Part shown: positions 23,078 to 40,851 of the stretch, one piece after another
How the letters are laid out: every line of letters starts with the position of its first letter
Position numbering within the stretch: position 1 is the stretch's first letter
Assembly (NCBI GenBank): GCA_029552825.1
Contig: JAKPDL010000211.1
Coordinates: 1 to 41,913, forward strand
DNA: 41,913 nucleotides
From: Bacteroidota bacterium
GTDB taxonomy: Bacteria; Bacteroidota; Bacteroidia; Bacteroidales; VadinHA17
Direction of reading: 5' to 3'
Translations under genes and position numbers: made by a program
The notes under the pieces: model-generated
What the model was told of the DNA's origin: nothing
Seen by the model: the letters and a program-made list of their open reading frames with translations, nothing else
Databases searched by the model: none

Positions 23078-24445
23078 TTATTTTGCTTCTGGCAGGTCAT
23101 ATTGTGAAAGTATCGCTTCCACTTCTGACTGTGTTAGCTCATGGTCGGGCAGGTTGCCTTCAAAGTATTTCTCGTAAGCTGAAATATCCATGTGTCCGTG
23201 ACCGCTGAGGTTGAACAGTATCACTTTTGATACTCCTTCGAGGTCAGCTCTTCGTGCTTCGTCGAGGGCTGCAGCTATTGCGTAGTTCGATTCAGGGGCA
23301 GGGAGGATACCTTCAGTGCTTGCAAAGAGTACTCCGGCTTCAAAGCATTCTCTCTGCATTTTTGCCTTTGCTTCGATGTAACCGTCCTTCAGCAGCTGGC
23401 TCACCAGCACGCCGGCTCCGTGATAGCGCAATCCACCTGCATGTATCTTTTCAGGTATGAAGTTGTGCCCGAGTGTGTACATTGGTAAAAGCGGAGTCAT
23501 GCCGGCTGAATCGCCAAAATCGTACATAAATTTTCCTTTTGTAAGTTTCGGACAGGATGCCGGTTCAACGGTCAGCAATCTTACGTTTTTACCATTGAGC
23601 AGCCGTTCGCGCAGGAACGGGAATGCTATGCCTGAGAAGTTTGAACCACCACCGAAACAGCCTATTACAACATCAGGATAATCACCAGCTTTTTCCATCT
23701 GAAGCAATGCCTCCTGCCCGATGATTGTCTGATGCAGGATAACATGGTTTAATACACTTCCGAGGGAATATTTTGTATAAGGATCCTGCAATGCAATCTC
23801 CATGGCTTCGGATATTGCAATGCCAAGACTTCCAGGTGACTCGGGGTCCTGTTCAAGAACCTTTCTACCTGCCTCAGTCATGGTGCTTGGCGAAGGAACA
23901 ACCCTTGCACCATATGCACTCATAAGCACCTTGCGGCCTGGCTTCTGGTAATAACTCACCTTCACCATGAACACCAGCAACTCGAGTCCGAAATGGTGAC
24001 ATGCAAAACTCATGGCACTGCCCCACTGGCCTGCACCAGTTTCAGTTGTAATTCTCCTTATGCCCTCTTTTTTATTGTAATATGCCTGTGCTATAGCAGT
24101 ATTGGCTTTGTGCGAGCCTGAATAGTTGTTCCCTTCGTACTTATAATAAATTTTGCTTTTTGTACCCAGCTTCCTTTCAAGATTTATGGCTCTGTAAAGC
24201 GGGGAGGGGCGGTAGGTTTTGTAGAGGTCAAGAACTTCATCAGGTATATCGATATACCTTTCAGTAGAAACCTCCTGTTTTATGAGTTCCATGGGGAATA
24301 CAGCTGCCAGATCCTCCGGACCCAGAGGCTGACGGGTTGCAGGATGCAGTGGAGGCAAAGGCTTGTTGGGCATATCAGCAAGGATGTTATACCATTGCCT
24401 CGGCATCTCTCTTTCTGTCAGAATAATCTTTTTTGATGTTTTCAT
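23078..24445 (-). CDS. trpB: Tryptophan synthase beta chain, TrpB2 type
   Basis: This is a PLP enzyme of 455 residues. The length and the N-terminal extension mark the TrpB2 (TrpB-like) group rather than the roughly 400-residue TrpB1 partner of TrpA. The PLP lysine is Lys113 in GSHKANTA. The phosphate-binding loop is CFGGGSNFSG, and TETGAGQWGSA carries the catalytic Glu. It joins indole (or reacts a related acceptor) with serine to give tryptophan. No trpA or other trp gene is in the window; the gene stands alone behind its own promoter and a Trp-codon attenuator. That makes regulation by tryptophan supply very likely and argues for a true role in tryptophan synthesis. Confidence 0.93.
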   Translation of the reverse strand: MKTSKKIILTEREMPRQWYNILADMPNKPLPPLHPATRQPLGPEDLAAVFPMELIKQEVSTERYIDIPDEVLDLYKTYRPSPLYRAINLERKLGTKSKIYYKYEGNNYSGSHKANTAIAQAYYNKKEGIRRITTETGAGQWGSAMSFACHHFGLELLVFMVKVSYYQKPGRKVLMSAYGARVVPSPSTMTEAGRKVLEQDPESPGSLGIAISEAMEIALQDPYTKYSLGSVLNHVILHQTIIGQEALLQMEKAGDYPDVVIGCFGGGSNFSGIAFPFLRERLLNGKNVRLLTVEPASCPKLTKGKFMYDFGDSAGMTPLLPMYTLGHNFIPEKIHAGGLRYHGAGVLVSQLLKDGYIEAKAKMQRECFEAGVLFASTEGILPAPESNYAIAAALDEARRADLEGVSKVILFNLSGHGHMDISAYEKYFEGNLPDHELTQSEVEAILSQYDLPEAK

Positions 24446-24677: not shown

Positions 24678-25835
24678 TTACGTTTTATTGTGAAAATCTG
24701 TAAAATCCGAAGTCTCTTTTCTCTCTTCAAAATTATTGCTTTCCAGTCCGTTATTTACGATTCTTATCTGCCTGTTAATGGATTCCTGGTGGATTGCCTT
24801 GAATATCGTGTCAATAAGTTCTGCACTCAGTCCTTTTGCTTTTCCTTTTGAGATAGCTTTGCTGATCACCTCGTCCCACCGGGCGCTCTGAAGAACTGTT
24901 ATGTTGTTTCTCTTCTTGAAAAGTCCTATTTTATCGGCTATCTGCATTCTTCTTTCGAGCAGGTCAAGAAGGTGATCGTCGAATATGTCGATCTGCTGGC
25001 GGAGTTCACCCAGTTCATCGAGCAGTCGCGGGTCGGAAGGGTCGGGTGAGCGAAGAACAAGCCGGCAGAGTATCTCCTTAAGGGTATCGGGTGTTATCTG
25101 CTGGGCTGCATCACTCAGAGCTTTATCGGGGTCGATGTGGGATTCTATTATCAGACCATCAAAGTTAAGGTCCATTGCCTTCTGCGAGATCTCGAAGATA
25201 TATTTTCTGGCACCTCCAATATGGCTCGGGTCGCACAGTATGGGCAGCCCGGGTATTCTTCTTCTCAGTTCTATCGGGATCTGCCAGTTAGGCTGGTTGC
25301 GGTAGACAGTTTTTTCGAAAGCTGAAAATCCGCGGTGTATGGCTCCAATTTTCTTAATGCCTGCCCTTGCAACCCTCTCAATGGCACCTGTCCAGAGGTC
25401 AATATCAGGATTGATAGGATTTTTTACAAGGACTATTACATCCACACCGGTCAGAGCGTCGGCAATCTCCTGAACAGTAAAGGGATTAACCGAGGTGCGG
25501 GCACCTATCCAGAGAATGTCTATACCATATTTAAGTGCCTCGTAGACATGTTTTTCGTTAGCCACTTCAGTGGCCGTAAGCAAACCGGTCTCTTCCTTTA
25601 CTCTTCTTAGCCATTTCAGTGCAACATTCCCTGCCCCTTCAAAGGTGCCTGGACGTGTTCTCGGCTTCCAAATACCAGCACGGAAAGCCTTTACCTGCTT
25701 TATCTCTGATAACCTGCGCGCTGTCTCTATAACCTGCTCTTCGCTCTCTGCACTGCAGGGACCTGAGATGATAAACGGCTTGCCACCATCACTGATCCAT
25801 CTGTTGAGAGGCGTTATGTCCATCTGTAATACCAT
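24678..25835 (-). CDS. Bifunctional DAHP synthase / chorismate mutase
   Basis: The N-terminal part, about residues 1–265, is a type I-beta (KDO8P-like) DAHP synthase. It shows ISGPCSAES, the PEP-binding segment KAFRAGIWKPRTRPGTFEG and CDPSHIGGA. It condenses phosphoenolpyruvate with erythrose 4-phosphate, the first step to all aromatic amino acids. The C-terminal part, about residues 275–365, is an AroQ-type chorismate mutase (LGELRQQIDIFDDHLLDLLE), which makes prephenate. This fusion is frequent in Bacteroidota; the mutase part often gives feedback control by prephenate. It is last in the pheA–aminotransferase–tyrA operon, 7 bases after tyrA. Confidence 0.93.
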   Translation of the reverse strand: MVLQMDITPLNRWISDGGKPFIISGPCSAESEEQVIETARRLSEIKQVKAFRAGIWKPRTRPGTFEGAGNVALKWLRRVKEETGLLTATEVANEKHVYEALKYGIDILWIGARTSVNPFTVQEIADALTGVDVIVLVKNPINPDIDLWTGAIERVARAGIKKIGAIHRGFSAFEKTVYRNQPNWQIPIELRRRIPGLPILCDPSHIGGARKYIFEISQKAMDLNFDGLIIESHIDPDKALSDAAQQITPDTLKEILCRLVLRSPDPSDPRLLDELGELRQQIDIFDDHLLDLLERRMQIADKIGLFKKRNNITVLQSARWDEVISKAISKGKAKGLSAELIDTIFKAIHQESINRQIRIVNNGLESNNFEERKETSDFTDFHNKT

Positions 25836-25842
25836 AATCGTG

Positions 25843-26688
25843 CTAATTTAAAATTTTCTGTATCCTGTTAGCCTCATCCATAAGCTTTTTTAAACCTTCT
25901 GCATCCTTTTTTACAATCATCTGCCTGAAAATATGCATTTTCTCAATATAAGTATCTATAACTTCAAGGATGAATTCGGCATTTTCGATGAAAATGGGAG
26001 CCCACGTGTCGCCGCTACTTTTAGCAAGCCTCACTGTGCTTTCAAAACCTCCGGCTGCAAGTGTCAGTATGTTTTCTTCTTCCTTTTCCTTATCGAGCAC
26101 ACAGAGAGCCAGTGAAAAAGAAGTGATATGCGATATGTGCGAAACATATGCCACGTGCACATCATGACTGGCCGAATCCATGTATACTATCCTCATGTTG
26201 AGAACGTTCAGCATTTCTTTTATGGTCTCCAGAGCATCAGGGTCGCTAAGTTCCTTATCGCATATTATTGCCATTTTGTAGTCGAATAGCTTGCTGTGCG
26301 CGGCAAGAGGGCCTGAATACTCTGTACCTGCCATTGGATGGGCTGCAACAAATCTTCCTCTTGCAGGATGATCCTTTGCTGCCCTTGCTATAGAAGCTTT
26401 GGTTGAACCCATATCGGTCACAACCTTGGTGGTTCCGCCAATCATGTCGAGAATGACCGGAAGGAGCCTGCAATTAGAATCGACAGGAGTACATAAAATG
26501 ATCAGATCACTCTTCTCAACGGCATTTTCAAGTGTGTCTGTTTCATCAACAATACCGCACAACTTTGCAATGTTCTGATGCTGAATATTTGTATCAACAC
26601 CGATAACCCTGTCGGCAAATCCTCTCTTACGCAGATCTATTGCCAGAGAACCGCCTATAAGACCTATTCCTACAACACTTACAGTCAT
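25843..26688 (-). CDS. tyrA: Prephenate dehydrogenase
   Basis: The enzyme oxidatively decarboxylates prephenate to 4-hydroxyphenylpyruvate with NAD(P), on the way to tyrosine. The 281 residues contain the Rossmann signature VGIGLIGGSLA at the start, TDMGSTKASI, and the family motif HPMAGTEYSG. The helical C-terminal domain contains AAGGFESTVRLA. No chorismate mutase or ACT domain is fused here; the mutase is on the next gene. It lies between the aminotransferase and the DAHP synthase genes in the aromatic operon. Confidence 0.93.
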   Translation of the reverse strand: MTVSVVGIGLIGGSLAIDLRKRGFADRVIGVDTNIQHQNIAKLCGIVDETDTLENAVEKSDLIILCTPVDSNCRLLPVILDMIGGTTKVVTDMGSTKASIARAAKDHPARGRFVAAHPMAGTEYSGPLAAHSKLFDYKMAIICDKELSDPDALETIKEMLNVLNMRIVYMDSASHDVHVAYVSHISHITSFSLALCVLDKEKEEENILTLAAGGFESTVRLAKSSGDTWAPIFIENAEFILEVIDTYIEKMHIFRQMIVKKDAEGLKKLMDEANRIQKILN

Positions 26689-26736: not shown

Positions 26737-27897
26737 TTAAGCCAGGTTTTTTATTCTCTCTCTGGCTTCTTTAAGTTTTTCTTCATTGCTGCACAGCGAA
26801 ATTCTTACATATCCGTCGCCGTTTTTGCCAAAAATAAACCCGGGCGTTATAAAAACATGTGCTTTCTCGAGTACTTTATCTGAAAGTTCTTCGCCGTTTT
26901 TGTAATTTTCACTCACCTGGCCCCAGAGAAATAGGCCCGTTTGTTCCTTATCGTACCTGCAACCCAGTATATCCATTATCTCGTTTGCTATTTCCCTTCT
27001 GCGCCTGTAGATTTCGTTGTTCTTTTCAAACCAGTCGTCTCCTCTTTTGAGAGCTTCTGCAGCAGCAAGCTGCAGGGGCCGGAACATTCCTGAATCCATA
27101 TTGCTTTTGACTTTCAGTACTGTACTGATATAATCTCTGTCGCCTGCCACCAATCCAACTCTCCATCCTGCCATATTATGAGATTTGCTGAGTGAATTAA
27201 GTTCAAGTGCATATTCCTTTGCTCCGTCAACTGAAAGAATGCTGATGTGTTCACTGTTAAGGATGAAGCTGTATGGATTATCGTTACATATCAGAATTCC
27301 ATGTTTTGCAGCAAATTTTATCAGTCGTTCAAAAAGTATTGCAGATGCTTTTGTGCCTGTTGGCATATGAGGGTAGTTGACCCACATAAGTTTCACTTTA
27401 CTTAGGCTGGTGCTTTCAATCAAGTTAATATCGGGCATCCAGTTATTCTTTGCCAGCAGGTCGTATGTCCTTACAACACCACCCACAAGTCTGGTTACGG
27501 ATGTATATGAAGGGTAGCCAGGGTCGGGAACCAGCACCTCATCGCCGGGATTAACGAATGCCATCGAGATATGCATTATGCCTTCCTTGCTTCCGATGAG
27601 CGGTAGGATCTCATTTTCCGGATTTAGTGTGACCCCAAAATATTTCTGGTACCAGTCAGACATAGCTTTTCTCAGTTCTGGCAGGCCATTGTAGCTCTGG
27701 TACCCGTGTACTCCGGGAAGGGCTGCCTCTTCAGAAAGCTTTTTAATAGCTTCAGGAGGAGGAGGGAGGTCAGGGCTTCCGATGCCGAGGTTAATTACAT
27801 CAATGCCTGCCCGGCGCATCTGGTCAATCTGCCTGAGCTTGGCGGAGAAATAGTATTCTCCCACACTGTTTGTCCGTTCTGCCGGTTTAACTTTCAT
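26737..27897 (-). CDS. Class I/II aminotransferase, probably aromatic
   Basis: This is a fold-type I PLP aminotransferase of 386 residues. The Schiff-base lysine is Lys238 in SLSKSHNMAGWRVG, and the NYPHMPTGT segment matches the conserved NxPxxPTG region. It overlaps pheA by 11 bases and precedes tyrA, so it most likely transaminates phenylpyruvate and 4-hydroxyphenylpyruvate to Phe and Tyr, or forms arogenate. By sequence alone it also resembles LL-diaminopimelate or aspartate aminotransferases. Confidence 0.88.
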   Translation of the reverse strand: MKVKPAERTNSVGEYYFSAKLRQIDQMRRAGIDVINLGIGSPDLPPPPEAIKKLSEEAALPGVHGYQSYNGLPELRKAMSDWYQKYFGVTLNPENEILPLIGSKEGIMHISMAFVNPGDEVLVPDPGYPSYTSVTRLVGGVVRTYDLLAKNNWMPDINLIESTSLSKVKLMWVNYPHMPTGTKASAILFERLIKFAAKHGILICNDNPYSFILNSEHISILSVDGAKEYALELNSLSKSHNMAGWRVGLVAGDRDYISTVLKVKSNMDSGMFRPLQLAAAEALKRGDDWFEKNNEIYRRRREIANEIMDILGCRYDKEQTGLFLWGQVSENYKNGEELSDKVLEKAHVFITPGFIFGKNGDGYVRISLCSNEEKLKEARERIKNLA

Positions 27898-28741
27898 ATA
27901 TTTTGTCGTCTTTCAGATATATTCCGAGTATCTCCATATCATGAGTGTCTTCTTCAAGAAGGCTGTAAATCAGTTCCATAGTAGTATCTTCAGGAATCTC
28001 CAGGTCTAAGTAAAACATATATTCCCATCCTTTACCGTTAAGCCGTGGTACCGATTGTATTTTTGTAAGGTTAATATTTAACTCTGCAAGCTTTATAAGT
28101 ACATTTGCCAGGCTTCCAGGCCGATGGTTCAACGAAAAACATATTGAAGCTTTATTACCCGTTCTCAATCCCTTGCTTCGACTCCCTATAATAAGAAAAC
28201 GTGTGTAATTCTCGCGATAGGTCTCTATTCCCTCGGCTAATATTTCCAGACCATACATCTCAGCTGCTACTGACGAGGCTATTGCTGCTATTCCCATGAG
28301 CCTCTTTTCGCTTATTATTCTTGCACTGCCGGCTGTGTCTTCGGTTTCTACAAGGGTTATTTCAGGATGCTGGTTAAGGAAAGTCATGCACTGTGAGAAA
28401 GCTATGGGATGAGACCTTATTTCCTTTATGTCGGCCAGGGTTTGCCCGGGTAGTGCCATAAGGTTTTGTTTTATCCTCAGATTATGTTCACCGAGTATTT
28501 TCAACCCCGACTCCCTGATAAGTGTATAGTTATAAAGTATGCTCCCGGCTCTAGCATTTTCGATAGCCATTACTGCAAAATCAGCTCGTCCGGTTTTTAC
28601 TTCTGCAAGAGTCTGATCGAAAGTGGCACAGGGAACAATTTCGATATTGTTGCCACCGAAGTATTGTTTTGCAGCTACTTCATGAAAACTTCCTGTTTCT
28701 CCCTGGATAGATACTCTAATATGTCCGTTCATCTTTATCAT
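27887..28741 (-). CDS. pheA: Prephenate dehydratase with ACT domain
   Basis: This enzyme dehydrates and decarboxylates prephenate to phenylpyruvate. The 284 residues hold a two-lobed PDT domain (about 8–190), with MAIENARAGSI and the catalytic NYTRFLII motif. A C-terminal ACT domain (about 205–280; RPGSLANVLIKLAE) usually binds Phe for feedback inhibition. The family's ESRP motif is replaced by QSVP. The ATG at 28741 and the in-frame ATG at 28732 are both possible starts. It is first in the aromatic operon, directly after a Phe/Tyr attenuator. Confidence 0.93.
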   Translation of the reverse strand: MIKMNGHIRVSIQGETGSFHEVAAKQYFGGNNIEIVPCATFDQTLAEVKTGRADFAVMAIENARAGSILYNYTLIRESGLKILGEHNLRIKQNLMALPGQTLADIKEIRSHPIAFSQCMTFLNQHPEITLVETEDTAGSARIISEKRLMGIAAIASSVAAEMYGLEILAEGIETYRENYTRFLIIGSRSKGLRTGNKASICFSLNHRPGSLANVLIKLAELNINLTKIQSVPRLNGKGWEYMFYLDLEIPEDTTMELIYSLLEEDTHDMEILGIYLKDDKIYES

Positions 28742-28754
28742 ACCCTGTTAAACT

Positions 28755-28785
28755 CGCAAGGGCCCCTGTTTGAGGGACCCTTGCG
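28755..28785 (-). terminator. Attenuator hairpin of the Phe/Tyr leader
   Basis: In the RNA, CGCAAGGGTCCCT and AGGGGCCCTTGCG form a 13-bp stem (one G·U) around CAAAC. The tail AGUUUAACAGGG is poor in U for a classical terminator. The stem ends 13 bases before the pheA ATG, so it might also block translation start. It is mutually exclusive with a 15-bp antiterminator using the same 5' arm. Confidence 0.7.
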
Positions 28786-28828
28786 CCTTTATCTTTATTA
28801 TGTAAGCTACACACAAAAATCCCTCATT

Positions 28829-28897
28829 CTATTCCTTACCAAAAAAGAAATAGAAATAGAAGAAGGAAAAGAAATAATATTTATGTATAGCGTTCAT
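28829..28897 (-). CDS. Phe/Tyr leader peptide (22 residues)
   Basis: ATG at 28897 to TAG at 28829. Residues 7–19 read YYFFSFFYFYFFF: eight Phe and four Tyr among 13 positions. The peptide starts MNAIHK and ends GKE. Such density cannot reasonably be chance next to pheA and tyrA. Both amino acids made by the downstream operon are represented, so either shortage should stall the ribosome. Confidence 0.9.
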   Translation of the reverse strand: MNAIHKYYFFSFFYFYFFFGKE

Positions 28898-28914
28898 TCT
28901 CTTAAAAACGTCTA

Positions 28915-28945
28915 CAAAAATAGTTTTTAAATTTAAAAAAACAAA
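28915..28945 (-). promoter_or_regulatory. Promoter of the aromatic amino acid operon
   Basis: On the minus strand TTTG (28945–28942) and TATTTTTG (28922–28915) are 19 bases apart, fitting TTTG-N19-TAnnTTTG. The -7 element is 17 bases before the leader ATG, the same distance as at the his leader. Confidence 0.7.
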
Positions 28946-29041
28946 CATCGGGAAAAAATTATTTTATTTCATATCCGCCGCTAGGTTCCCGGCATCTGGC
29001 AGCGAAGGGTAGAAGCCGGTTACAATGGGGAAGGCACCAGT

Positions 29042-29644
29042 TCATTTATTCCTGTGTCTTTTCATCAGCACTTCCTCTATATCTTCGAGTTTATATCCTT
29101 TTGCCCTGAGCAGAACCAGGAAGTGGTACATCAGGTCGGCAGCTTCGTTGCAGAATGACTCATGAGAATCTTCTTTTGTTGCCTCTATTACCAGTTCAAC
29201 AGCTTCCTCGCCAGTTTTCTGTGCAATTTTGTTGATGCCTTCCCTGTAGAGTTTATTTGTGTATGAGTTTTCTGCGTTTTCGTAAATCCTCTGGTTGATT
29301 ATCTCCTCAAGCCTGTACATAAATCCCTTTGCCGGTGCATTTCCAAAGCACGATGTAGTGCCCAGATGACATACTGGTCCGGCAGGTTTTACCTTTATCA
29401 GCAGTGCATCATTGTCACAATCGGGTATAATTTCCTCAACATAAAGAAAATTGCCCGATGTCTCACCCTTTGTCCACTGCGCTTTCCTGGTACGGCTGTA
29501 AAAACTAACACGTCCTTCATTAATTGTTCTGTTGAGGGCTTCCTCATCCATGAATCCAACCATCAGAACCTGAAGGGTCTGTTTGTCCTGAATGACTGCA
29601 GGCACAAGGCCTGACATTTTGCTGAAATCGATTTTGTTCATCAT
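29042..29644 (-). CDS. hisIE: Phosphoribosyl-AMP cyclohydrolase / phosphoribosyl-ATP pyrophosphatase
   Basis: This bifunctional enzyme performs the second and third steps of histidine synthesis. The N-terminal HisI domain (about 1–105) has [15 protein letters not shown], the metal-binding region DCDNDALL and [14 protein letters not shown]. The C-terminal HisE domain (about 110–200) has [17 protein letters not shown] and [12 protein letters not shown]. The length of 200 residues is standard. It is last in the his operon and overlaps hisF by four bases. Confidence 0.95.
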
Positions 29645-30393
29645 CTTACCGGAATATTAAATTGTGAAAGATATTTTTTCAGTTCGTAGATTTTTATTTC
29701 TCCGTAATGGAATATGCTGGCGGCAAGGGCTGCGCTGCAGCCTGTGTGAAGAAAGACATCTCTTATATCTTCTTTACTGCCTGCACCGCCCGATGCAATT
29801 ACAGGTATGTTGACACTTTCGACTATCTTTTTAGTTATACCGATCGAAAAGCCCGACCTTGTCCCGTCAGCAGTCATTGATGTGAGAAGTATCTCACCAG
29901 CACCTGCATCTTCAGCTCTCTTTGCCCATTCAACCGTATCAATACTTGTTGGAGTACGTCCGCCATTGATAAATACCTTCCATGTGTTTTCTGCAAAGCC
30001 TGTGTCAATTGCTACCACCACACACTGACTACCAAAACGGTTTGCTATCTCAGTGATTAGGCCAGGGTTTTTTACTGCTGCCGTATTGATACTTATCTTA
30101 TCGGCTCCTGCATTTATAATAGCTTCCACATCTTTAAGCGAATTGATGCCACCGCCCACAGTGAATGGGATGTTTATTGCCCTGGCAACATTTTCAACCA
30201 GCGAAACAAGCGTTTTACGCCTTTCAATTGTGGCTGTTATGTCGAGAAAAACAAGCTCATCGGCTCCTTCTGCAACATACCTGCTGGCAAGCTCCACAGC
30301 GTCACCCGCATCCTTTATATTGACAAAATTTACTCCCTTAACCGTCCTTCCATCCTTTACGTCGAGGCATGGTATAATTCTTTTTTTCAGCAT
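29641..30393 (-). CDS. hisF: Imidazole glycerol phosphate synthase cyclase subunit
   Basis: This 250-residue (beta/alpha)8 barrel uses ammonia from HisH to turn PRFAR into imidazole glycerol phosphate and AICAR. The N-terminal [14 protein letters not shown] carries the catalytic Asp11, and the opposite Asp is in VVAIDTGF. The phosphate-binding loops are GGGIN and ASGGAGS. It overlaps hisA by seven bases and hisIE by four bases. Confidence 0.96.
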
Positions 30394-31100
30394 AACTCCG
30401 CGAGATCTTTTAGTTGTATGTAACCCTCATATATTGCTTTACCCAGTATTGCACCTTCACAACCGGTTTCTGATAACCTGTAAAGGTCGTTAACCGACCT
30501 GATTCCTCCACTTGCAATTAGGTTGATTTTACATTTTGACAAAATATCTTTATATAGCTCTATTGCAGGACCTTCAAGCATGCCGTCCCTTTCAATGTCG
30601 GTGCATACCACGTATGAAACGCCTTCGAGACTGTATCTGCTGATAAAATCAATGATATCCTCATCTTTTTCAGATGTCCAGCCTTCCACACATACTTTAC
30701 GGTTGCGTGTGTCGGCGCTTAGAATTATCCGCTCAGTACCGTGTTTTTTCAGCCATTCCAGAAACATTTCTCGGTTCAAAACAGCTAAACTTCCGCAGTT
30801 AACCTGCGAAGCACCACACTCAAAGGCTATTCTGACATCATCATCCGTTCTTATGCCTCCTCCAAAATCGATGATGAGCGATGTGGTCACAGCAATCTTT
30901 TCAAGTACCCTGTAATTTACTACCCTGCCTTCCCGGGCACCGTCAAGATCGACAAAATGAAGATACTCCAGTCCGGCATCCTCAAACATTTTTGCAGTGT
31001 CAACAGGGTCGCCGCGGTACTCTTTCTTTGAAGAGAAATCGCCGCGCGTCAGCCTTACACACTTTCCTCCTATGATGTCCATTGCAGGTATTATTCTCAT
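30387..31100 (-). CDS. hisA: ProFAR isomerase
   Basis: This 237-residue (beta/alpha)8 barrel isomerises ProFAR to PRFAR, the fourth histidine step. The start [19 protein letters not shown] has the catalytic Asp, with the second acid in [11 protein letters not shown]. Phosphate loops are GGGIRT and ASGGIRS. It is a paralogue of the next gene, hisF. It overlaps hisH by four bases. Confidence 0.95.
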
Positions 31101-31675
31101 AACGAAAGAAAATTTCTTAATACTTTTTCTCCTTTATCTCCCGACTTTTCGGGATGAAACTGCGTTGCATAAAAATTATCCTTCTGCATTGCTGCACTGA
31201 AGGGAAGAATATATTCACATACCGCAACAGTTGACTCTCCTGTTTCAGCATAATAACTATGAACATAGTACATGTCGTCAGATTCTTTCAGTCCATCGAA
31301 AAGTTTTCCGTAAATACTTATGAAATTATTCCATCCCATATGCGGTACCACCTGCAGAGGAGGAAATTTCCTGACCTTCGAGTTAAATATTCCCAGACAT
31401 TCAGTGTTATCTTCTTCCGAAGAGATGCACATCAGTTGTAGTCCGAGACATATGCCAAGTACAGGTTGTTTCAGAGAAAGTATAACCCTGTCGAGTCCTC
31501 GCTCTTTCAGGTATTTCATTGCCTGGCCGGCATGACCAACACCGGGTATAATCACTTTATCAGCTCTGACGAGCTCTTCTTTACTGTCGGTGATAATTGC
31601 TTCATGTCCGGCTCTCGCCAGGGCATTAATCACCGATTTTATGTTTCCAGCGTTATATTTCAGTATTGCAATCAT
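31097..31675 (-). CDS. hisH: Imidazole glycerol phosphate synthase glutaminase subunit
   Basis: This class I glutamine amidotransferase of 192 residues supplies ammonia to HisF. The nucleophile is Cys76 in LGICLGLQ. The His–Glu pair is in TQFHPEKSG near the C-terminus, and PGVGHAG is the oxyanion-side loop. It overlaps both hisB and hisA by four bases, consistent with coupled translation of the complex subunits. Confidence 0.95.
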   Translation of the reverse strand: MIAILKYNAGNIKSVINALARAGHEAIITDSKEELVRADKVIIPGVGHAGQAMKYLKERGLDRVILSLKQPVLGICLGLQLMCISSEEDNTECLGIFNSKVRKFPPLQVVPHMGWNNFISIYGKLFDGLKESDDMYYVHSYYAETGESTVAVCEYILPFSAAMQKDNFYATQFHPEKSGDKGEKVLRNFLSL

Positions 31676-32760
31676 AGTTTTCCTTTTGTGCTCGGTATAT
31701 CGCCTCTTCCTGTTTTATTTACTGCCATGCCAAGTGCTTTTCCAAAGGCTTTGAAGATGGCTTCAGCCTTATGGTGTTCATTGCTGCCCTCAGCCTTCAC
31801 ATTGATGTTGCAACCGGCATTGTCGGCAAAGGTTTTGAAAAAATGAAAAACCATTTCTGACGGCATGTCACCTATTTTCTCCCTTGTGAATGTGACATCC
31901 CATACCAGCCATGGCCTGCCGCTCAGGTCAATTGCAACATTCGCAAGCGAATCATCCATCGGCACTGTAAAACCAAACCTTTCAATACCCTTTCTGCTAG
32001 CCAGTGCCCTCGCAACAGCTCTGCCCAGCGCAATGGCACTGTCTTCAATTGTATGATGCTCATCAACATCGAGGTCTCCTTCAGCCTTAAGCTTAATGTC
32101 GATATTGCCGTGTCTCGCAATCTGGCTGAGCATGTGATTGAAAAATCCGATTCCTGTGTCAGCTTCAATTTTACCTGTTCCGTCGAGGTTAACTTCAGCC
32201 GTTATCTTCGTTTCACCTGTTATGTATTCTTCAATTGCCTTTCGATTAAGACCTGTGATATACCGGAATATTTCATCCCAGTCGGATGTGCATAGTGATG
32301 CATAATCCGACTTTCTGCCTCCGAAAAGTATGGCTTTGCAGCCAAGGTTTTTTGCCAGCTCTACATCTGTCAGCCTGTCGCCAATTACATACGACGACTT
32401 CAAATCTATTCCCTGTGATAGATATTTTGTAAGCAGTGCAGTTCCAGGTTTTCTGGTGGGTGCCTTCTCTTCAGGCAGGCTTCTGTCGATAAATATTTCA
32501 CTGAACCGGATTCCTTCACCTTCAAGAATCTTGAGCATCTTATTGTGTGCTGGCCAGAATGTCTCTTCAGGAAAAAGCTCAGTACCAAGCCCATCCTGAT
32601 TTGTCACCATAACAAGTTCATAATCTGTTTGTGTTGCAATTTTTGCAAGAGCAGTAATTACCCCGGGAACAAATTCAAGTTTTTCAAGTGAGTCGACCTG
32701 TTCATCAGGAGGCTCTTTTACGATGGTTCCGTCGCGGTCGATGAAAAGAGTTCTCTTCAT
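31672..32760 (-). CDS. hisB: Histidinol-phosphatase / imidazole glycerol phosphate dehydratase
   Basis: This fused enzyme has 362 residues. The N-terminal HAD phosphatase (about 1–165) has FIDRDGT with Asp8 and Asp10 as nucleophile and acid/base. The C-terminal IGP dehydratase (about 170–362) has metal-binding His motifs DEHHTIEDSAIALG and EHHKAEAIFKAFG. It removes water from imidazole glycerol phosphate and later dephosphorylates histidinol phosphate. The fusion, known from enterobacteria, is also frequent in Bacteroidota. Confidence 0.96.
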   Translation of the reverse strand: MKRTLFIDRDGTIVKEPPDEQVDSLEKLEFVPGVITALAKIATQTDYELVMVTNQDGLGTELFPEETFWPAHNKMLKILEGEGIRFSEIFIDRSLPEEKAPTRKPGTALLTKYLSQGIDLKSSYVIGDRLTDVELAKNLGCKAILFGGRKSDYASLCTSDWDEIFRYITGLNRKAIEEYITGETKITAEVNLDGTGKIEADTGIGFFNHMLSQIARHGNIDIKLKAEGDLDVDEHHTIEDSAIALGRAVARALASRKGIERFGFTVPMDDSLANVAIDLSGRPWLVWDVTFTREKIGDMPSEMVFHFFKTFADNAGCNINVKAEGSNEHHKAEAIFKAFGKALGMAVNKTGRGDIPSTKGKL

Positions 32761-33788
32761 ACCTGAATATTTTTAAGTGCTTCGAGCAACAGGTCATTTT
32801 CATAAGGCTTGCCAATGGTTATCCTCAGGCAGTTTTCAACCACCGACGACCTGTTCCTTACAATTATATCATTACTGATGAGTTTCCTGTAAACCATATC
32901 AGCATCGGTAACTTTTACAAGAAGAAAATTTGCATCTGAAGGAAATACCTTTATTGTAACAGGAAGCTTCCTGATTTCTGCAGCAACTCTTTCCCGTTCA
33001 CGGATGATTTCCTTTACCTGACTACGGTAATTCAAACCTTCCGATAGCTTTTCAATAGCTGCCATCTGATTAATTGTACTCACATTATAGGGAGGTTTAA
33101 TCTTGTTGTAATAGGTAATTATTTCAGGGTTGGCGAAGGCCATGCCAATTCTGATTGCGGCAAGGCCCAGCGCCTTGCTGAAGGTCTGCATTACAATAAG
33201 ATTGGGATATTTTTCCGTTTTTCTTAGAAATGAGGGTTTATCACTGAAGTCAGAATATGCCTCATCGAGAAGTACAATTCCTTCAAACCTGCTTATGATA
33301 TACTCAACACTTTCAGAGTGCATGCAATTTCCTGTAGGATTATTCGGAGAGCAGATGAAAATAATTTTAAGATTTTTATCGTCCAGATATTGTTCAGCTT
33401 TGTTAACATCTATCTGAAAATTTTCATTTAGAGGCACTTTAATAATTTCCAGGTCGTTAATGGCAGCTGATACTTCGTACATTCCATAGGTAGGAGGGAA
33501 GATCATTACTTTGTCCTTACCCGGGTTACCGAATATTCTGAGTGTAAGATCTATAATCTCATCGCTTCCGTTACCAATAAAAATATATTCCTTGTTTATT
33601 CCTTTAAGCCTCGAGACAGCTGATTTCAGGTTTTGCTGGTAAGGATCGGGATATCGGTTTAGAGTACCGTAGGGATTTTCGTTTGCATCGAGGAAAACTC
33701 CAGGCTTACCGTTGTATTCATCTCTTGCCGAGGAATAGGGTACTAACCTTTTTATATTTTCTCTTACCAGTTTGTTAATATCAGGCAT
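32757..33788 (-). CDS. hisC: Histidinol-phosphate aminotransferase
   Basis: This PLP enzyme of 343 residues transfers an amino group from glutamate to imidazole acetol phosphate. Conserved segments include LDANENPYG, SPNNPTGN and the lysine region MQTFSKALGLAAIRIG. It lies 11 bases after hisD and overlaps hisB by four bases. Confidence 0.95.
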   Translation of the reverse strand: MPDINKLVRENIKRLVPYSSARDEYNGKPGVFLDANENPYGTLNRYPDPYQQNLKSAVSRLKGINKEYIFIGNGSDEIIDLTLRIFGNPGKDKVMIFPPTYGMYEVSAAINDLEIIKVPLNENFQIDVNKAEQYLDDKNLKIIFICSPNNPTGNCMHSESVEYIISRFEGIVLLDEAYSDFSDKPSFLRKTEKYPNLIVMQTFSKALGLAAIRIGMAFANPEIITYYNKIKPPYNVSTINQMAAIEKLSEGLNYRSQVKEIIRERERVAAEIRKLPVTIKVFPSDANFLLVKVTDADMVYRKLISNDIIVRNRSSVVENCLRITIGKPYENDLLLEALKNIQV

Positions 33789-33799
33789 ATATTTAGTCT

Positions 33800-35077
33800 T
33801 TAAAGTCTGATTTTTACTGCATTGCTGTGGGCGTTAAGCTGTTCGGCTTCAGCCATCTCTATTACAGCAGGACCAACAGTTGCCAGTCCGTCTCTTGTAA
33901 CTTCCTGAAAGAAAATTTGTTTTAGAAAGTTGTCCACCGACAGCCCGCTGAAACTGCGAGCATATCCGTTTGTAGGAAGTGTATGGTTGGGGCCTGAGGC
34001 ATAGTCGCCCATGCTTTCACAACTGAATTCTCCGATGAAGACTGAACCTGCAGAGGAGACTTTCTCAGCGAGTCTGTGGCAGTCGGGTGTGTTAATAATC
34101 AGATGTTCAGGTGCATATACGTTACTGAACCTGATGCAGTCGTCGAGTGAATTTAACAGCACTGCCATACTGTTGCTCATAGCTTTCTCTGCTATTTTCT
34201 TTCTGGGCAGGAGATTAAGCTGTTTTTGAATCTCCGATTCTACAGCGTCAATAAGATCTGCTGAGTCGGTGACCAGGATAGTCTGGCTGTCTGGTCCATG
34301 TTCTGCCTGGGAAAGCAGGTCGGCTGCTATATAATCAGCTCTGGCTTCTTTTCCTGCAATCACCAGCACTTCGCTCGGACCGGCAGGCATGTCAATTGCT
34401 ACGCCATACTCCTGTACTATCTCCTTGGCTTTTGTTACATACCGGTTGCCTGGTCCAAATATTTTATAAACCCCTGGAATCGTTTCAGTTCCGAAAGCCA
34501 TTGCAGCAATTGCCTGAGCTCCTCCGATCCTGTATATGTTCCTGATGTCAAGTAACCTGGCTGTGTAAAGAATCAGGGGGTTGATATTGCCCTCTTTGTC
34601 GGGAGGGGAGCAGAGAATTATTTCCCTGCAGCCTGCCAGACGGGCAGGAATACCGAGCATAAGAACGGTAGAAAAGAGAGGTGCACTGCCACCGGGTATA
34701 TACAAGCCCACCTTCTCAATGGGAACACATCTCCTCCAGCATTTAATACCGATGGAAGTAATTACGGATGAGTCGGAATGAATCAGGGCTGCATGGAATT
34801 TTTCAATATTACGTTTTGCAATATCTATTGATTTTTTCAAGGAGGAGGGCACAGCTTCAGACGACCTTTCTATTTCTTCATCGGATACTTTGAGAGAGGT
34901 AAGCTTTATACCATCAAACCTCATGGAATATTCTTCCAGAGCAGAATCGCCTTTGCGCTTTACATTTTCAATAATATCAGCTACAATTCCGCGAATCTCT
35001 TCATCATCTCCCGCAGAAGGCCTTTCACATAATGCTTCCCATGTTTCCCTTGCAGGATAGTAATATTTTTTCATCAC
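33800..35077 (-). CDS. hisD: Histidinol dehydrogenase
   Basis: This zinc enzyme of 425 residues performs the last two oxidations to histidine with NAD. Visible landmarks are VGLYIPGGSAPLFSTVLM, AGPSEVLVIAG, AEHGPDSQTILVT and YASGPNHTLPTNGYAR. It overlaps hisG by four bases. Confidence 0.96.
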   Translation of the reverse strand: MMKKYYYPARETWEALCERPSAGDDEEIRGIVADIIENVKRKGDSALEEYSMRFDGIKLTSLKVSDEEIERSSEAVPSSLKKSIDIAKRNIEKFHAALIHSDSSVITSIGIKCWRRCVPIEKVGLYIPGGSAPLFSTVLMLGIPARLAGCREIILCSPPDKEGNINPLILYTARLLDIRNIYRIGGAQAIAAMAFGTETIPGVYKIFGPGNRYVTKAKEIVQEYGVAIDMPAGPSEVLVIAGKEARADYIAADLLSQAEHGPDSQTILVTDSADLIDAVESEIQKQLNLLPRKKIAEKAMSNSMAVLLNSLDDCIRFSNVYAPEHLIINTPDCHRLAEKVSSAGSVFIGEFSCESMGDYASGPNHTLPTNGYARSFSGLSVDNFLKQIFFQEVTRDGLATVGPAVIEMAEAEQLNAHSNAVKIRL

Positions 35078-35931
35078 TTAATCATTTTTTCTATTGGTAT
35101 AACAAGAATTCCTTCTGCGCCTGCTTCTTTCAGCATATTAATGCTTTCCCAGAAATCGTCTTCTCTAACAACAGAATGGAGACTCACCCAGCCTTTTTCC
35201 ACCAGAGGCAGTATGGTCGGACTCTTCATTCCCGGAAGTATTTCAGCAATTCTGGCAACAGCTGACTCAGGCGCATTGAGAAGTATATATTTGTTTTCAC
35301 CAGCATTCTTTACTGCCCTGATCCTGAAAAGCAATTTGTCCAGTATCTCAGACTTCTTCCCGCTTAGCTTTTTGTTTACTACAAGCACGGCCTGGCTTGT
35401 AAGTATTGTTACTACTTCTTTAAGTCCGTTGGTCATGAGTGTACTACCCGAGCTGACTATATCGCACACAGCATCAGCAAGCCCTATCCCGGGAGCTATT
35501 TCAACACTTCCGCTAATCTCCTCTATCGCTGCTTTTATATTATTTTTTCTGAGATAATCAGAAAGTATGTTCGGATAACTGGTTGCTATTTTTTTGCCGT
35601 TGAAAAATTCCGGACCAGTATACTCTTCTTCTCTCGGTATTGCAAGACTTAATCTGCACCGTGCGAATCCCAACCTCTCAACAATTCTTATATCCTTGCT
35701 CTTTTCGGCAACCATGTTTTCTCCTATAATTCCTGCATCGGCAACCCCCTGTTCGACATATTGAGGAATGTCGTCGTCGCGCAGATAAAGTATTTCGGCT
35801 GGAAAATTTGTTACAACCGATTTTAGCATACCTGTTCCATTGGAAAATTTCAAACCACACTCAACAAGCAGTTTCTTTGAGCTGTCACTAAGCCTTCCGT
35901 CTTTCTGAATAGCTATTTTAAGCTTGTTCAT
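35074..35931 (-). CDS. hisG: ATP phosphoribosyltransferase, long form
   Basis: This is the first committed and usually His-inhibited step of the pathway, joining ATP and PRPP. The 285 residues show the long form, with catalytic domains about 1–210 (start KIAIQKDGRLSD; DAVCDIVSSGSTLMTNGL near the PRPP site) and a C-terminal ACT-like regulatory domain about 215–285. No separate HisZ is therefore needed. It opens the his operon, directly after a four-His attenuator. Confidence 0.96.
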   Translation of the reverse strand: MNKLKIAIQKDGRLSDSSKKLLVECGLKFSNGTGMLKSVVTNFPAEILYLRDDDIPQYVEQGVADAGIIGENMVAEKSKDIRIVERLGFARCRLSLAIPREEEYTGPEFFNGKKIATSYPNILSDYLRKNNIKAAIEEISGSVEIAPGIGLADAVCDIVSSGSTLMTNGLKEVVTILTSQAVLVVNKKLSGKKSEILDKLLFRIRAVKNAGENKYILLNAPESAVARIAEILPGMKSPTILPLVEKGWVSLHSVVREDDFWESINMLKEAGAEGILVIPIEKMIK

Positions 35932-36186: not shown

Positions 36187-37248
36187 TTATACTCTTTCTG
36201 CAACAAGGTCACCCACTTCAGTAGTTGAATATCCCATCTTTCCGGCTGCGAGGTCTTTTAATTTGTTGGCTGTGACATCCATTATAGCATTCTCGATGGC
36301 TTTTGCAGCTTTCTCTTCCCCAAGATGTTCGAGCATCATTGCTCCACACGAAATGGCTGCAAGAGGGTTGATTACGTTTTTGCCTGTGTATTTTGGTGCC
36401 GAGCCTCCTATAGGTTCGAACATCGAAACTCCTTCAGGGTTGATGTTGCCTCCAGCTGCAATGCCCATACCACCCTGCGTAATTGCCCCAAGGTCGGTAA
36501 TGATGTCACCAAACATGTTTGTGGTGACTATCACATCAAACCATTCAGGATTCTTAACCATCCACATGCAGGTGGCATCAACATGGTAATACTCTCTTTT
36601 TATATCAGGAAAGTGTTTCTCGCCCATCTCATGAAATGCCCTTTCCCACAGATCAAAAACGTAGGTGAGAACATTCGTTTTTCCACATAAGGCAAGGGTC
36701 TTCTTTTTATTCCTTTTGCGGGTATACTCGAAAGCATATTTCAGACAGCGGTCAACCTGCATACGTGTATAAACCATGTTCTGTATTGCAACCTCATGTG
36801 GTGTGCCTTTCATGGTGACTCCGCCAGAACCGGTATAAACATCCCCTGTATTTTCCCTTACAACAACATAATCAATATGTTCCGGACCTTTATCTTTCAG
36901 AGGTGTATTTACACCGGGATAAAGTTTAACCGGACGAAGATTTATATACTGATCGAGTTCGAAGCGGAGCCTCAACAGAATCCCTTTTTCAAGAATGCCA
37001 GGTTTGACATCCGGATGACCAATTGCTCCCAGTAAAATGGCATCGAATTTTTTCAGCTCATCAATTGCAGAGTCGGGTAGAGTCTCTCCTGTTCTCAGGT
37101 AACGCTCCCCGCCGAAATCGTATTCGTGAAAGTTTAGACCAAATCCATACTTGCCTGAAGCAGCTTTCAGAACTTTTACACTTTCCCTGGTAACTTCAGG
37201 TCCGGTGCCGTCACCAGGTATAACAGCAATATTGTAAGTTTTCTTCAT
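36187..37248 (-). CDS. leuB: 3-Isopropylmalate dehydrogenase
   Basis: This NAD-dependent enzyme of 353 residues oxidises and decarboxylates 3-isopropylmalate to 2-oxoisocaproate for leucine. Landmarks are [11 protein letters not shown] at the start, [46 protein letters not shown] and [19 protein letters not shown]. It is last in the leu operon, 27 bases after the citramalate/isopropylmalate synthase-like gene. Confidence 0.94.
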
Positions 37249-37275
37249 AAATGTAAAAAATTGCAGATCAGATTA

Positions 37276-38841
37276 TTATAAATTATTGTTTGTCAGCGGA
37301 TAAGATATTTCCATTTTTTGTCCCGAGCTGGAGTTTTCAATGATATTCAGCATTCTTTCAGTAGCCTTGATTGCCGATTCAGTCTGATCGGCATCCAGGC
37401 CTTTAGTTCTGAACTCCATACCTTTATAATTCCATGAAATAACAGTTTCCACAAGGGCATCTGTTTTTCCGCCGGGAGGTATCGACACTTTGTAGTCGGT
37501 AAGAACAGGCAGTTCTTTGCCGAGGTGGTCGTAAATTTTTCTCAGAGCTTTCATGAATGCATCATACTGGCCGTCGCCTGAAGAGGTCTCTTCATATACC
37601 TGGCCGTCAATTTCAACCAGTATGCTTGCCACAGGTCTCATGCCATAAGATAGGGCAAGGGAGTAGTTTTTTATGAAAACGCGGTAAGGTATCTTTTCAG
37701 CACCAAGTACGTCGGAGATAATAAACGGCAGATCTTCTGTTGTGACGCACTCTTTTTTGTCGCCCAGCTCAATTACTCTTTGTGTAACCCTTTCAATGGA
37801 CTCAGGAGAGAGATTGAGTCCGAATTCCTCAAGGTTCTTTTTTATTGTGGCTTTCCCCGAAAGCTTCCCAAGGGCGTATTTTCTTTTTCTTCCAAAACGT
37901 TCAGGAAGCAGGTTGTTGAAATACAGGTTTGCTTTGCTATCGCCATCGGCATGGATCCCAGAAGTCTGAGTAAAGACGTTTTCTCCGATAACCGGCTGGT
38001 TTACGGCAATCCTTATCCCGCTGTAGGATTCGACAACCTGGCTTATTTTTGTTATCTGCGACTCATCAATGCCGGTCTTGTATCCGAGATGGTCGTGTAA
38101 CACTGCCACAACGCTCGATAATGGAACATTTCCAGCACGTTCACCCAGTCCGTTAACTGTGGTATGTATACCTTTGATGCCTGCCTTTACTGCCGAAAAT
38201 ACATTTGCTACGGCAAAGTCATAATCGTTGTGTGCATGAAAATCAAAATGTACATCCTGATATTTTTCTGTCATCACCGAGCAGAACTGATATGTCTGCT
38301 CAGGGTTTAGAATGCCAAGAGTATCAGGCAGCATGAATCTTTTGACAGGTTCTTCTTTGAGCGATTCCATCATAAAATGAACATAATCCTGTGAATGGAT
38401 CATCCCGTTCGACCAGTCTTCGAAGTAGATGTTTACATCAATGCCTGTTTCACTGGCTTTATGGATAACATATTTTATATCAGACACATGCTGTTCAGGG
38501 GTTTTTCTTAATTGTTTTTCCAGATGGCGAAGTGAACCTTTGCACAGCAGGTTGATTACTTTGAGGCCTGCCTTTCTGATCCATTCCAGCGAAACGTCAC
38601 CATCGACAAAACCAAGAACTTCAACCCTGTCGAGAAACCCGTTCTTTCCAGCCCACTCGGAGATTTTGCATGCAGCTTCGAATTCTCCTTTCGAAACCCG
38701 TGCTGAGGCAATCTCAATGCGGTCGACCTTTACTTCTTTCAGAAGAAGTGTAGCTATATGCAGCTTCTCCAGCGGAGAATATGATACACCCTGCATCTGT
38801 TCACCATCGCGGAGGGTCGTATCCATTATTTCTACTCTCAT
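37276..38841 (-). CDS. Citramalate/2-isopropylmalate synthase-like enzyme
   Basis: The 521 residues have a DRE-TIM barrel (DTTLRDGEQMQGV at residues 7–19, metal-binding HAHNDYDFA) and a C-terminal LeuA regulatory domain. It is a second condensing enzyme in addition to leuA further upstream. Sequence features such as FEDWSNGM and TLGILNPEQ, with its place between leuD and leuB, suggest (R)-citramalate synthase. That would make the isoleucine precursor from pyruvate and acetyl-CoA and share LeuCD and LeuB for the next steps. An isopropylmalate or homocitrate-type synthase cannot be excluded by eye. It overlaps leuD by four bases. Confidence 0.75.
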   Translation of the reverse strand: MRVEIMDTTLRDGEQMQGVSYSPLEKLHIATLLLKEVKVDRIEIASARVSKGEFEAACKISEWAGKNGFLDRVEVLGFVDGDVSLEWIRKAGLKVINLLCKGSLRHLEKQLRKTPEQHVSDIKYVIHKASETGIDVNIYFEDWSNGMIHSQDYVHFMMESLKEEPVKRFMLPDTLGILNPEQTYQFCSVMTEKYQDVHFDFHAHNDYDFAVANVFSAVKAGIKGIHTTVNGLGERAGNVPLSSVVAVLHDHLGYKTGIDESQITKISQVVESYSGIRIAVNQPVIGENVFTQTSGIHADGDSKANLYFNNLLPERFGRKRKYALGKLSGKATIKKNLEEFGLNLSPESIERVTQRVIELGDKKECVTTEDLPFIISDVLGAEKIPYRVFIKNYSLALSYGMRPVASILVEIDGQVYEETSSGDGQYDAFMKALRKIYDHLGKELPVLTDYKVSIPPGGKTDALVETVISWNYKGMEFRTKGLDADQTESAIKATERMLNIIENSSSGQKMEISYPLTNNNL

Positions 38842-39437
38842 GGGATTATATGTTTTTTTTCAAATTCTTCTATTTTTTCTTTCATAGTAAGCAGATAATC
38901 AATATCGTCCATTCCATTAAGAAGGCATTCCTTTTTCCAAGGATTGATATCGAACCTTATTGCCTTACCTGTTTTTGGTATTTCAAGCAACTGGTGCCCG
39001 AGATCTATTATTACCTTCATATCAGGATGCTGCTGTATCAGCATAAAGAGATTCCTCAGATTTTCTTCAGGAATCATTACAGGCAGTAGTCCGTTATTCA
39101 GGGCATTGTTTTTAAAGATATCTGCAAAAAAGCTAGATATTACCGCCCTGAATCCGTAATCGTAAAGAGCCCATACGGCGTGTTCCCTGCTCGAGCCGCA
39201 ACCGAAGTTTTTGCCTGCTACAAGTATTGAACCTGAATAAACAGGATTATTCAGTACAAACTCTTTCACCGGTTCCCCGTTTTTATCATATCTCCAGTCG
39301 TGAAAAAGATGTTTTCCGAGTCCCTTGCGGGATGTTGTTGTAAGATATCTTGCAGGAATTATCTGGTCAGTGTCGATATTTTCGACAGGCAATGGTACAC
39401 ATCTCGACTCGAGTACTGTGAATTTTACCCCTGGCAT
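38838..39437 (-). CDS. leuD: 3-Isopropylmalate dehydratase small subunit
   Basis: This 199-residue swivel domain of the isopropylmalate isomerase works with LeuC. The motifs VENIDTDQIIPARYL near the N-terminus and KNFGCGSSREHAVWAL are diagnostic. It lies 16 bases after leuC and overlaps the synthase-like gene by four bases. Confidence 0.95.
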   Translation of the reverse strand: MPGVKFTVLESRCVPLPVENIDTDQIIPARYLTTTSRKGLGKHLFHDWRYDKNGEPVKEFVLNNPVYSGSILVAGKNFGCGSSREHAVWALYDYGFRAVISSFFADIFKNNALNNGLLPVMIPEENLRNLFMLIQQHPDMKVIIDLGHQLLEIPKTGKAIRFDINPWKKECLLNGMDDIDYLLTMKEKIEEFEKKHIIP

Positions 39438-39453
39438 ATAATTAAATATTTAG

Positions 39454-40848: not shown

Positions 40849-40851
40849 TGC

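Follow-up and report, generated by a model that had tools for sequence, protein, structure and literature searches.

The aromatic amino acid operon of the Bacteroidota bacterium studied here is very probably controlled by a ribosome-mediated transcription attenuator that would sense charged tRNA-Phe and probably also charged tRNA-Tyr. The operon is located in a DNA stretch of 41,913 nucleotides (the window) and comprises pheA and the genes for an aminotransferase, TyrA, and a fused DAHP synthase/chorismate mutase. Three features typical of attenuators were found 5' of pheA, namely, (i) a short open reading frame (ORF) rich in Phe and Tyr codons, (ii) a terminator and an antiterminator that share one arm and exclude each other, and (iii) a 1:2 protector pairing. 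The ORF, the promoter match, the three exclusive helices, their conservation, and their covariation can be read from the DNA itself. An attenuator at this position had been proposed in a previous sequence-only reading, and strong support for the proposal now comes from its conservation and covariation, from the terminators that relatives possess, and from its linkage to the operon.

The leader ORF is located on the minus strand, 5' of pheA, and contains 22 codons followed by the stop codon TAG (28897-28829), with MNAIHKYYFFSFFYFYFFFGKE as its product; it is present in the list of ORFs and their translations and is kept in relatives. Its codons 7 to 19 (28841 to 28879) form the Phe/Tyr control region, as supported by translation and by parsimony on relatives, and 12 of these 13 consecutive codons specify Phe or Tyr, exactly as the sequence-only reading had counted. 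The ORF list also contains a longer version of 39 codons with an ATG at 28948. Since this ATG sits 5' of the promoter boxes, the 22-codon version is likely the reading that is transcribed. When the 500 bases 5' of pheA were shuffled 100 times, the Phe/Tyr density of the window leader was never reached. A promoter of the Bacteroidota type precedes the ORF and consists of a -33-type element, TTTG (28945-28942), a spacer of 19 nt, and the -7-type box TATTTTTG (28922-28915), which fits the consensus TAnnTTTG given in PMC9723704. All 28 aligned sequences of the close set described below, including that of the window, contain TTTG or TTG at a spacing of 17 to 22 nt as well as the -7 box, for which shuffles predict 2.6 occurrences, and the box was also found in 59 of 81 more distant leaders (8.1 expected). 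A scan for sigma-70 promoters identified no site on the minus strand of the window; the promoter previously noted before the ORF is borne out as one of the Bacteroidota type.

Profile matches agree with the genes that had been named downstream, all of which are on the minus strand. The first is pheA, encoding prephenate dehydratase (27887 to 28741; PF00800, E value of 1.2e-58; an ACT match is just below the Pfam cutoff), followed by the genes for a class I/II aminotransferase (26737 to 27897), the prephenate dehydrogenase TyrA (25843 to 26688), and DAHP synthase fused to chorismate mutase (24678 to 25835), each with domain or profile matches. After the operon, on the same strand, there is a gene for a TrpB-like pyridoxal phosphate enzyme (23078-24445; NF009057).

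The leader RNA is predicted to fold with a z-score of -7.15, and none of 200 shuffles folded equally well. Three helices were identified. (i) The antiterminator strand, GAGGGATTTTTGTGT (28825-28811), begins 3 bases after the leader stop codon, and the genome contains a single copy of its core pattern. As computed, it pairs with region 3 (28786-28772), which includes the 5' arm of the terminator, in a helix of 15 pairs (-23.8 kcal/mol). An additional T-A pair at 28826, visible in the sequence, extends this helix, and the spacing of two bases after the stop given in the sequence-only reading is therefore correct. (ii) The terminator hairpin, supported by pairing computation and alignment, is formed by its 5' arm (28785-28773) and region 4 (28767-28755), with 13 bp, a loop of 5 nt, and an energy of -24.6 kcal/mol; it is followed by a weak U-tract. 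Antiterminator and terminator hairpin share one arm and are mutually exclusive, so that the competition for the 5' arm of a 13-bp hairpin stands as originally described. (iii) A third helix, absent from that description, is part of the minimum-energy fold and joins region 1 (28891-28880; codons 3 to 6, right before the Phe/Tyr run) with region 2 (28817-28806), part of which also belongs to the antiterminator strand. Supported by fold and covariation, this helix corresponds to the 1:2 protector pairing of classical attenuators and encloses the whole Phe/Tyr run.

From these features we infer translation of the leader, ribosome stalling, termination, and a response to each amino acid, as follows. 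Judging from the -7 box, transcription would start ~10 to 15 nt before the leader ORF. With charged tRNA-Phe and tRNA-Tyr plentiful, the ribosome would reach the stop codon and cover the first bases of the antiterminator; once it is released, region 1, before the Phe/Tyr run, would pair with region 2, after the stop. Since the antiterminator could form neither under the ribosome nor in the presence of the 1:2 helix, the 3:4 hairpin would fold, and transcription would stop before pheA. With charged tRNA-Phe, and probably charged tRNA-Tyr, in short supply, the ribosome would stall within the Phe/Tyr run and cover region 1, leaving region 2 free; by capturing the terminator's 5' arm, region 2 would let transcription proceed.

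The PheA protein was used to scan for relatives; 376 were found, and the 80 best loci were retained. Two loci (L025 and L039) were left out because upstream DNA was absent or too short. The close set consists of 27 of the 28 closest loci (L001 to L028, L025 being without upstream DNA) and the window, amounting to 28 aligned sequences. The Phe/Tyr ORF, the core GGGATT(A/T)TTGT after the ORF, the antiterminator pairing, and the hairpin were each present in all 28, so that the conservation of leader ORF, Phe/Tyr codons, and pairings that had been proposed as a check was found throughout. In 27 of the 28 sequences, the stop codon starts 3 to 8 bases before the core. The exception is L019, in which the leader stop codon is changed and the ORF runs on through the antiterminator core; this change may be genuine or may stem from a sequencing error.

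The protector helix covaries across the 28 aligned sequences, in which 85.2% of its cells are paired and 19 cells have changed on both sides, compared to 4.9 in shuffles (reached in 0 of 500). When the partner was shifted by one column, only 31 to 35% of cells were paired. Larger slides gave 70% pairing at -2 and 53% at +2, where double changes were counted at 8 pairs and in 16 cells. Other measures of this helix were reached more readily by shuffles, such as 6 pairs with double changes (61 of 500) and 15 pair types (218 of 500). When arms were exchanged among the 24 distinct arm pairs, the total energy of the cognate combinations was reached in 0 of 20,000 permutations; for single sequences, noncognate arms often performed equally well (34 of 54 in L011, 34 of 54 in L015, and 33 of 40 in L027), and the helix is weak in L009, L011, and L027 (-4.2 to -6.3 kcal/mol). 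The same exchange gave 0 of 20,000 permutations for the terminator and 9 of 20,000 for the antiterminator; in all of these permutations, as in the shuffles, shared ancestry is left in. Counted on the alignment of the close set, the latter two helices show little variation; their double-change pairs were reached by 62 (antiterminator) and 98 (terminator) of 500 shuffles and their covariation scores by 28 and 32, respectively. The clearest antiterminator pair is A-U in 11, G-C in 6, and G-U in 5 of 27 sequences and unpaired in 5. These permutations and counts address the covariation of both hairpins, which the sequence-only reading had proposed to look for in relatives.

A hairpin with a T-rich tail between the leader stop codon and pheA was found at 82 of the 109 loci with a leader (see below), whereas shuffles predict 1.85. 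Of the distant leaders with a terminator, 60 distinct ones were examined; 43 possess a strand near the stop codon that pairs with the 5' arm of the terminator (P < 0.05), and no significant antiterminator was found in the other 17. The pairing sequences of the antiterminator differ widely among lineages. Together, these pairings and terminators are good evidence for a switch of this kind across the class. In the window itself, the best 8 bases of the hairpin tail include only 3 T, and there is no real U-tract (28754-28742), about which the earlier description was silent, and its hairpin was detected by neither of two terminator scans. By the same count, 24 of the 28 close sequences reach 5 T or more, low values being those of the window, L003, L005, and L019; a stricter scan for the T-tail was failed by 10 of the 28, including the window, and found a tail in L019. 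A poor tail may suffice for termination in the window, or else the hairpin has another mode of action. Accordingly, one could argue that the switch, in this species, acts on the translation of pheA or on RNA stability instead of transcription, given the missing U-tract and the fact that the hairpin ends only 13 nt before the pheA start codon and would therefore hinder initiation. We consider this unlikely, because U-tracts do follow the corresponding hairpin in relatives, with 8 T in 8 bases in L017, L020, L022, and L023 and with a T-rich tail at the 82 loci mentioned overall. The presence of these U-tracts indicates that the ancestral mode was probably termination.

Proteins matching PheA were found in 138 of the 158 genomes of the phylum searched. 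A leader was scored when at least 6 Phe or Tyr were present in 10 residues within 500 bases before pheA. By this measure, 30 of 34 genomes of the same class with PheA, the window's own genome excluded, contain a leader. From the 103 matching genomes of other classes, 35 were picked by hand for best scores and spread (the second PheA match of G030 was left out); a leader was found in 4 of them (L083, L092, L101, and L103) and was absent in 31. The PheA proteins of these 4 are closer to that of the window than is usual for their families, and the leader may therefore have traveled with the operon. Upstream DNA was available for 51 named loci of greater distance, and 48 of these have a leader, the exceptions being L035, L038, and L074. 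The scan for leaders and terminators covered 148 loci, 109 of which have a leader and 39 of which lack an ATG-started one; as the scan requires an ATG, L100, which has a GTG start, was scored negative. The 109 loci include that of the window and were not deduplicated; the number of distinct peptides among them is 72 for the distant and 25 for the close loci. At L044, two Phe/Tyr-rich ORFs are arranged in tandem 315 to 243 and 160 to 76 bases before a single pheA, possibly forming a double attenuator.

The T-rich nature of this DNA makes Phe codons cheap, with shuffles yielding about two thirds of the observed Phe, and in a few AT-rich relatives the run score was attained by shuffles, although at most 6 times in 100 (L086). 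An AT-rich spacer that by chance reads as Phe/Tyr codons and folds has nevertheless a negligible probability, given that the run density of the window was matched by none of 100 shuffles and that the leader is kept in all 28 aligned sequences and in 30 of the 34 other genomes of the class. This conservation, along with the covariation of the helices, in effect refutes chance.

The presence of the leader is linked to the operon. In most operons with a leader, the gene for DAHP synthase/chorismate mutase follows pheA, and tyrA need not be near. Four loci with a lone pheA were examined, and none has a leader; these are L035 and L074, with no operon partner in ~2.5 kb downstream, and G012 and G095, with a divergent pheA and no partner in the stretch. 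L038, which also lacks a leader, ends 75 bases past the PheA match. In three genomes (G076, G111, and G148) the leader is absent although pheA is beside tyrA. Two of these (G076 and G111) have the order pheA-aminotransferase-tyrA, and the gene before pheA ends within it (6027-7286 in L157 and 6015-7238 in L158, minus strand; EPSP synthase in G076), so that pheA is not the first gene of its transcript. G148 (L145) belongs to another class; its tyrA shares the strand of pheA at a distance of ~1 kb, with no Phe/Tyr leader.

The codons of the leaders were aligned, and their changes were counted by parsimony on the PheA tree, with the core defined as the seven columns with at least 90% Phe or Tyr. 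The core columns showed 19 synonymous changes, 20 exchanges between Phe and Tyr, and 2 changes from Phe or Tyr to another residue, whereas 42 synonymous changes, 3 Phe-Tyr exchanges, and 77 other replacements were counted in the columns outside the core. The probability of observing at least 20 Phe-Tyr exchanges in 22 replacements is ~2e-15 if such exchanges account for 1/7 of replacements and ~1e-10 if they account for 1/4. These counts indicate that the identity as Phe or Tyr is constrained and that the choice between the two is much less so. Relative to shuffled leaders, Tyr was enriched 3.4- to 3.7-fold and Phe ~1.5-fold, and Leu, a one-step neighbor of Phe, was depleted to 0.06 and 0.23 times the shuffles. 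Phe and Tyr occur together in 108 of the 109 leaders. The sole leader without Tyr (L029) looks like related leaders, for instance that of L049, read in their alternative frame, and a frameshift or error is therefore possible. Trp as a third sensed residue is not supported, since it is present in 22 of the 72 distinct distant leaders (19.1 expected from shuffles) and in none of the 25 distinct close ones.

The interchange of the two residues bears on two further readings of the leader. Arrest peptides of the TnaC type conserve specific residues at fixed places of the nascent chain. A peptide of this type, which would bind free Phe or Tyr in the ribosome instead of reporting tRNA charging, would be in line with a short aromatic-rich ORF and with the nearly constant distance between stop codon and switch in the close set. 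Fixed conserved residues were sought in the leaders and were not found; within the class, leaders differ greatly in the length and order of the run and in the residues beside it, and Phe and Tyr are freely exchanged, which makes such arrest very improbable. A less remote alternative, which remains behind dual sensing in our estimation, is that the leader senses Phe only. The Tyr codons would then be tolerated in the run because TAT and TAC are near neighbors of TTT and TTC, and a shortage of Tyr would be without effect, as was reported for the AroR leader (Phe-Tyr-Phe), which responds to Phe and not to Tyr (PMC11802643). Leaders in five genomes of family f2 (L151 to L155) also retain Tyr with no tyrA seen downstream. 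Tolerance is opposed by the 20 exchanges between Phe and Tyr against 2 to any other residue, by the depletion of Leu at the same time as the enrichment of Tyr, and by the near-universal presence of both residues.

In the same five f2 genomes, the gene for DAHP synthase/chorismate mutase follows pheA, no tyrA was seen in the fetched stretch, and the leaders have at least as many Tyr as Phe; in G057, one further genome whose stretch shows no tyrA, Phe outnumbers Tyr in the leader. An explanation of the Tyr codons by tyrA in the operon is thus not general. The sequence-only reading had matched the Phe and Tyr content to the two products of the operon, which is only partly right in view of these f2 leaders; the Tyr codons can be explained by the common pathway no less well than by tyrA itself. 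The dual Phe and Tyr sensor that it had also suggested is favored by the interchange of the two residues and by the enrichment of Tyr, from which we infer it, and is opposed by the reported indifference of AroR to Tyr; on balance, dual sensing is the more probable reading. Within the attenuator model, a shortage of Tyr alone would probably induce the operon. With slightly less confidence, we favor a sensor of the OR type throughout the Bacteroidia, in which Phe and Tyr codons are interchangeable and a shortage of either charged tRNA would open the operon.

A second leader peptide is encoded in the window. The minus-strand regions 29042-35931 and 36187-41913 contain his genes and a leu-like cluster, whose leu names we take from a reading of the sequences, and the aromatic operon comes directly after; of the 28 closest loci, 25 likewise have hisIE before pheA, and in the remaining three the upstream DNA is too short. 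Between the two regions, before hisG, the peptide MAWFRTYQHHHHSSPQARQ is encoded (36099-36040, minus strand), followed by an apparent hairpin with a T-run. Among 40 genomes of the family that were searched, 24 have hisG, and at least 4 His in 8 residues precede it in 18 of them, including that of the window. Attenuation by a leader peptide therefore seems to govern his in this lineage, too. The two leaders of the window would represent the same type of switch in the same genome, but that of hisG has His codons and an unrelated sequence.

No Rfam family matched the window at the gathering threshold. Lax thresholds gave nine matches, all at chance level, among which Phe_leader (RF01859) had the lowest E value (1.8); positions 1 to 125 of its 125-position model align to the leader with 17.7 bits, compared to a gathering threshold of 55. 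The element could thus become a new Rfam family. A comparative survey of attenuation by Lopatovskaya et al. (2010) may include Bacteroidetes and might predict a leader of this type; in the full-text literature, the matches listed contain no article besides PMC9723704 that concerns such a leader in Bacteroidota. This article (2021) reports a structured 5' element at pheA of Flavobacterium psychrophilum that is conserved in Flavobacteriaceae, strong clues for leader-peptide attenuation before amino acid operons of this species, no Rfam match for elements among which are the ones at pheA and hisG, and the lack of Shine-Dalgarno sequences in Flavobacterium. Phylum and gene are those of the leader described here, and the element is probably the same system; our guess is that family f5 of our sample corresponds to Flavobacteriaceae. 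The sections of PMC9723704 considered here give neither codon content nor a model with antiterminator and protector, and no reach beyond Flavobacteriaceae. Short ORFs that resemble attenuation leaders have also been reported in 5' untranslated regions of Bacteroides thetaiotaomicron (PMC7366714). From these two reports, the kind of system is already known and prior art is partial, and the previous statement that a dual sensor in Bacteroidota is "not well described" is fair but not absolute. The absence from the matches listed is weak evidence that the Bacteroidia-wide Phe/Tyr leader, the three-helix model, and the Phe-Tyr interchange are unpublished. The model is concrete and testable, and it concerns aromatic amino acid regulation in a large class in which leader-peptide control is little described in the articles considered here.

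Two further similar systems are from other phyla. The leader pheL of Escherichia coli contains Phe codons and is not known to contain Tyr codons. Like the window leader, enterobacterial pheL precedes pheA and is controlled by Phe-charged tRNA, but the enterobacterial pheA encodes a fused chorismate mutase-prephenate dehydratase (PMC11802643), whereas in the window the dehydratase is without fusion and is followed by TyrA and DAHP synthase/chorismate mutase. Control in E. coli is reported to be split between the pheL attenuator and the repressors TyrR and TrpR of DAHP synthase genes (PMC11802643). If the OR sensor is true, one RNA would do the job that E. coli divides among pheL, TyrR, and TrpR, and it would control, in the operon from pheA to DAHP synthase/chorismate mutase, the entry to all aromatic amino acids. 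The only experimentally studied mixed Phe/Tyr leader found in the literature search is AroR of Corynebacterium glutamicum, which resembles the window leader in its Phe and Tyr codons, its position in a DAHP synthase operon (aroF), and the stalling of the ribosome (PMC11802643). It differs in belonging to the Actinobacteria, in having Phe-Tyr-Phe in place of 12 control codons, and in its reported response to Phe and not to Tyr (PMC11802643). The leaders described here offer a natural test of whether mixed Phe/Tyr leaders sense one or two amino acids.
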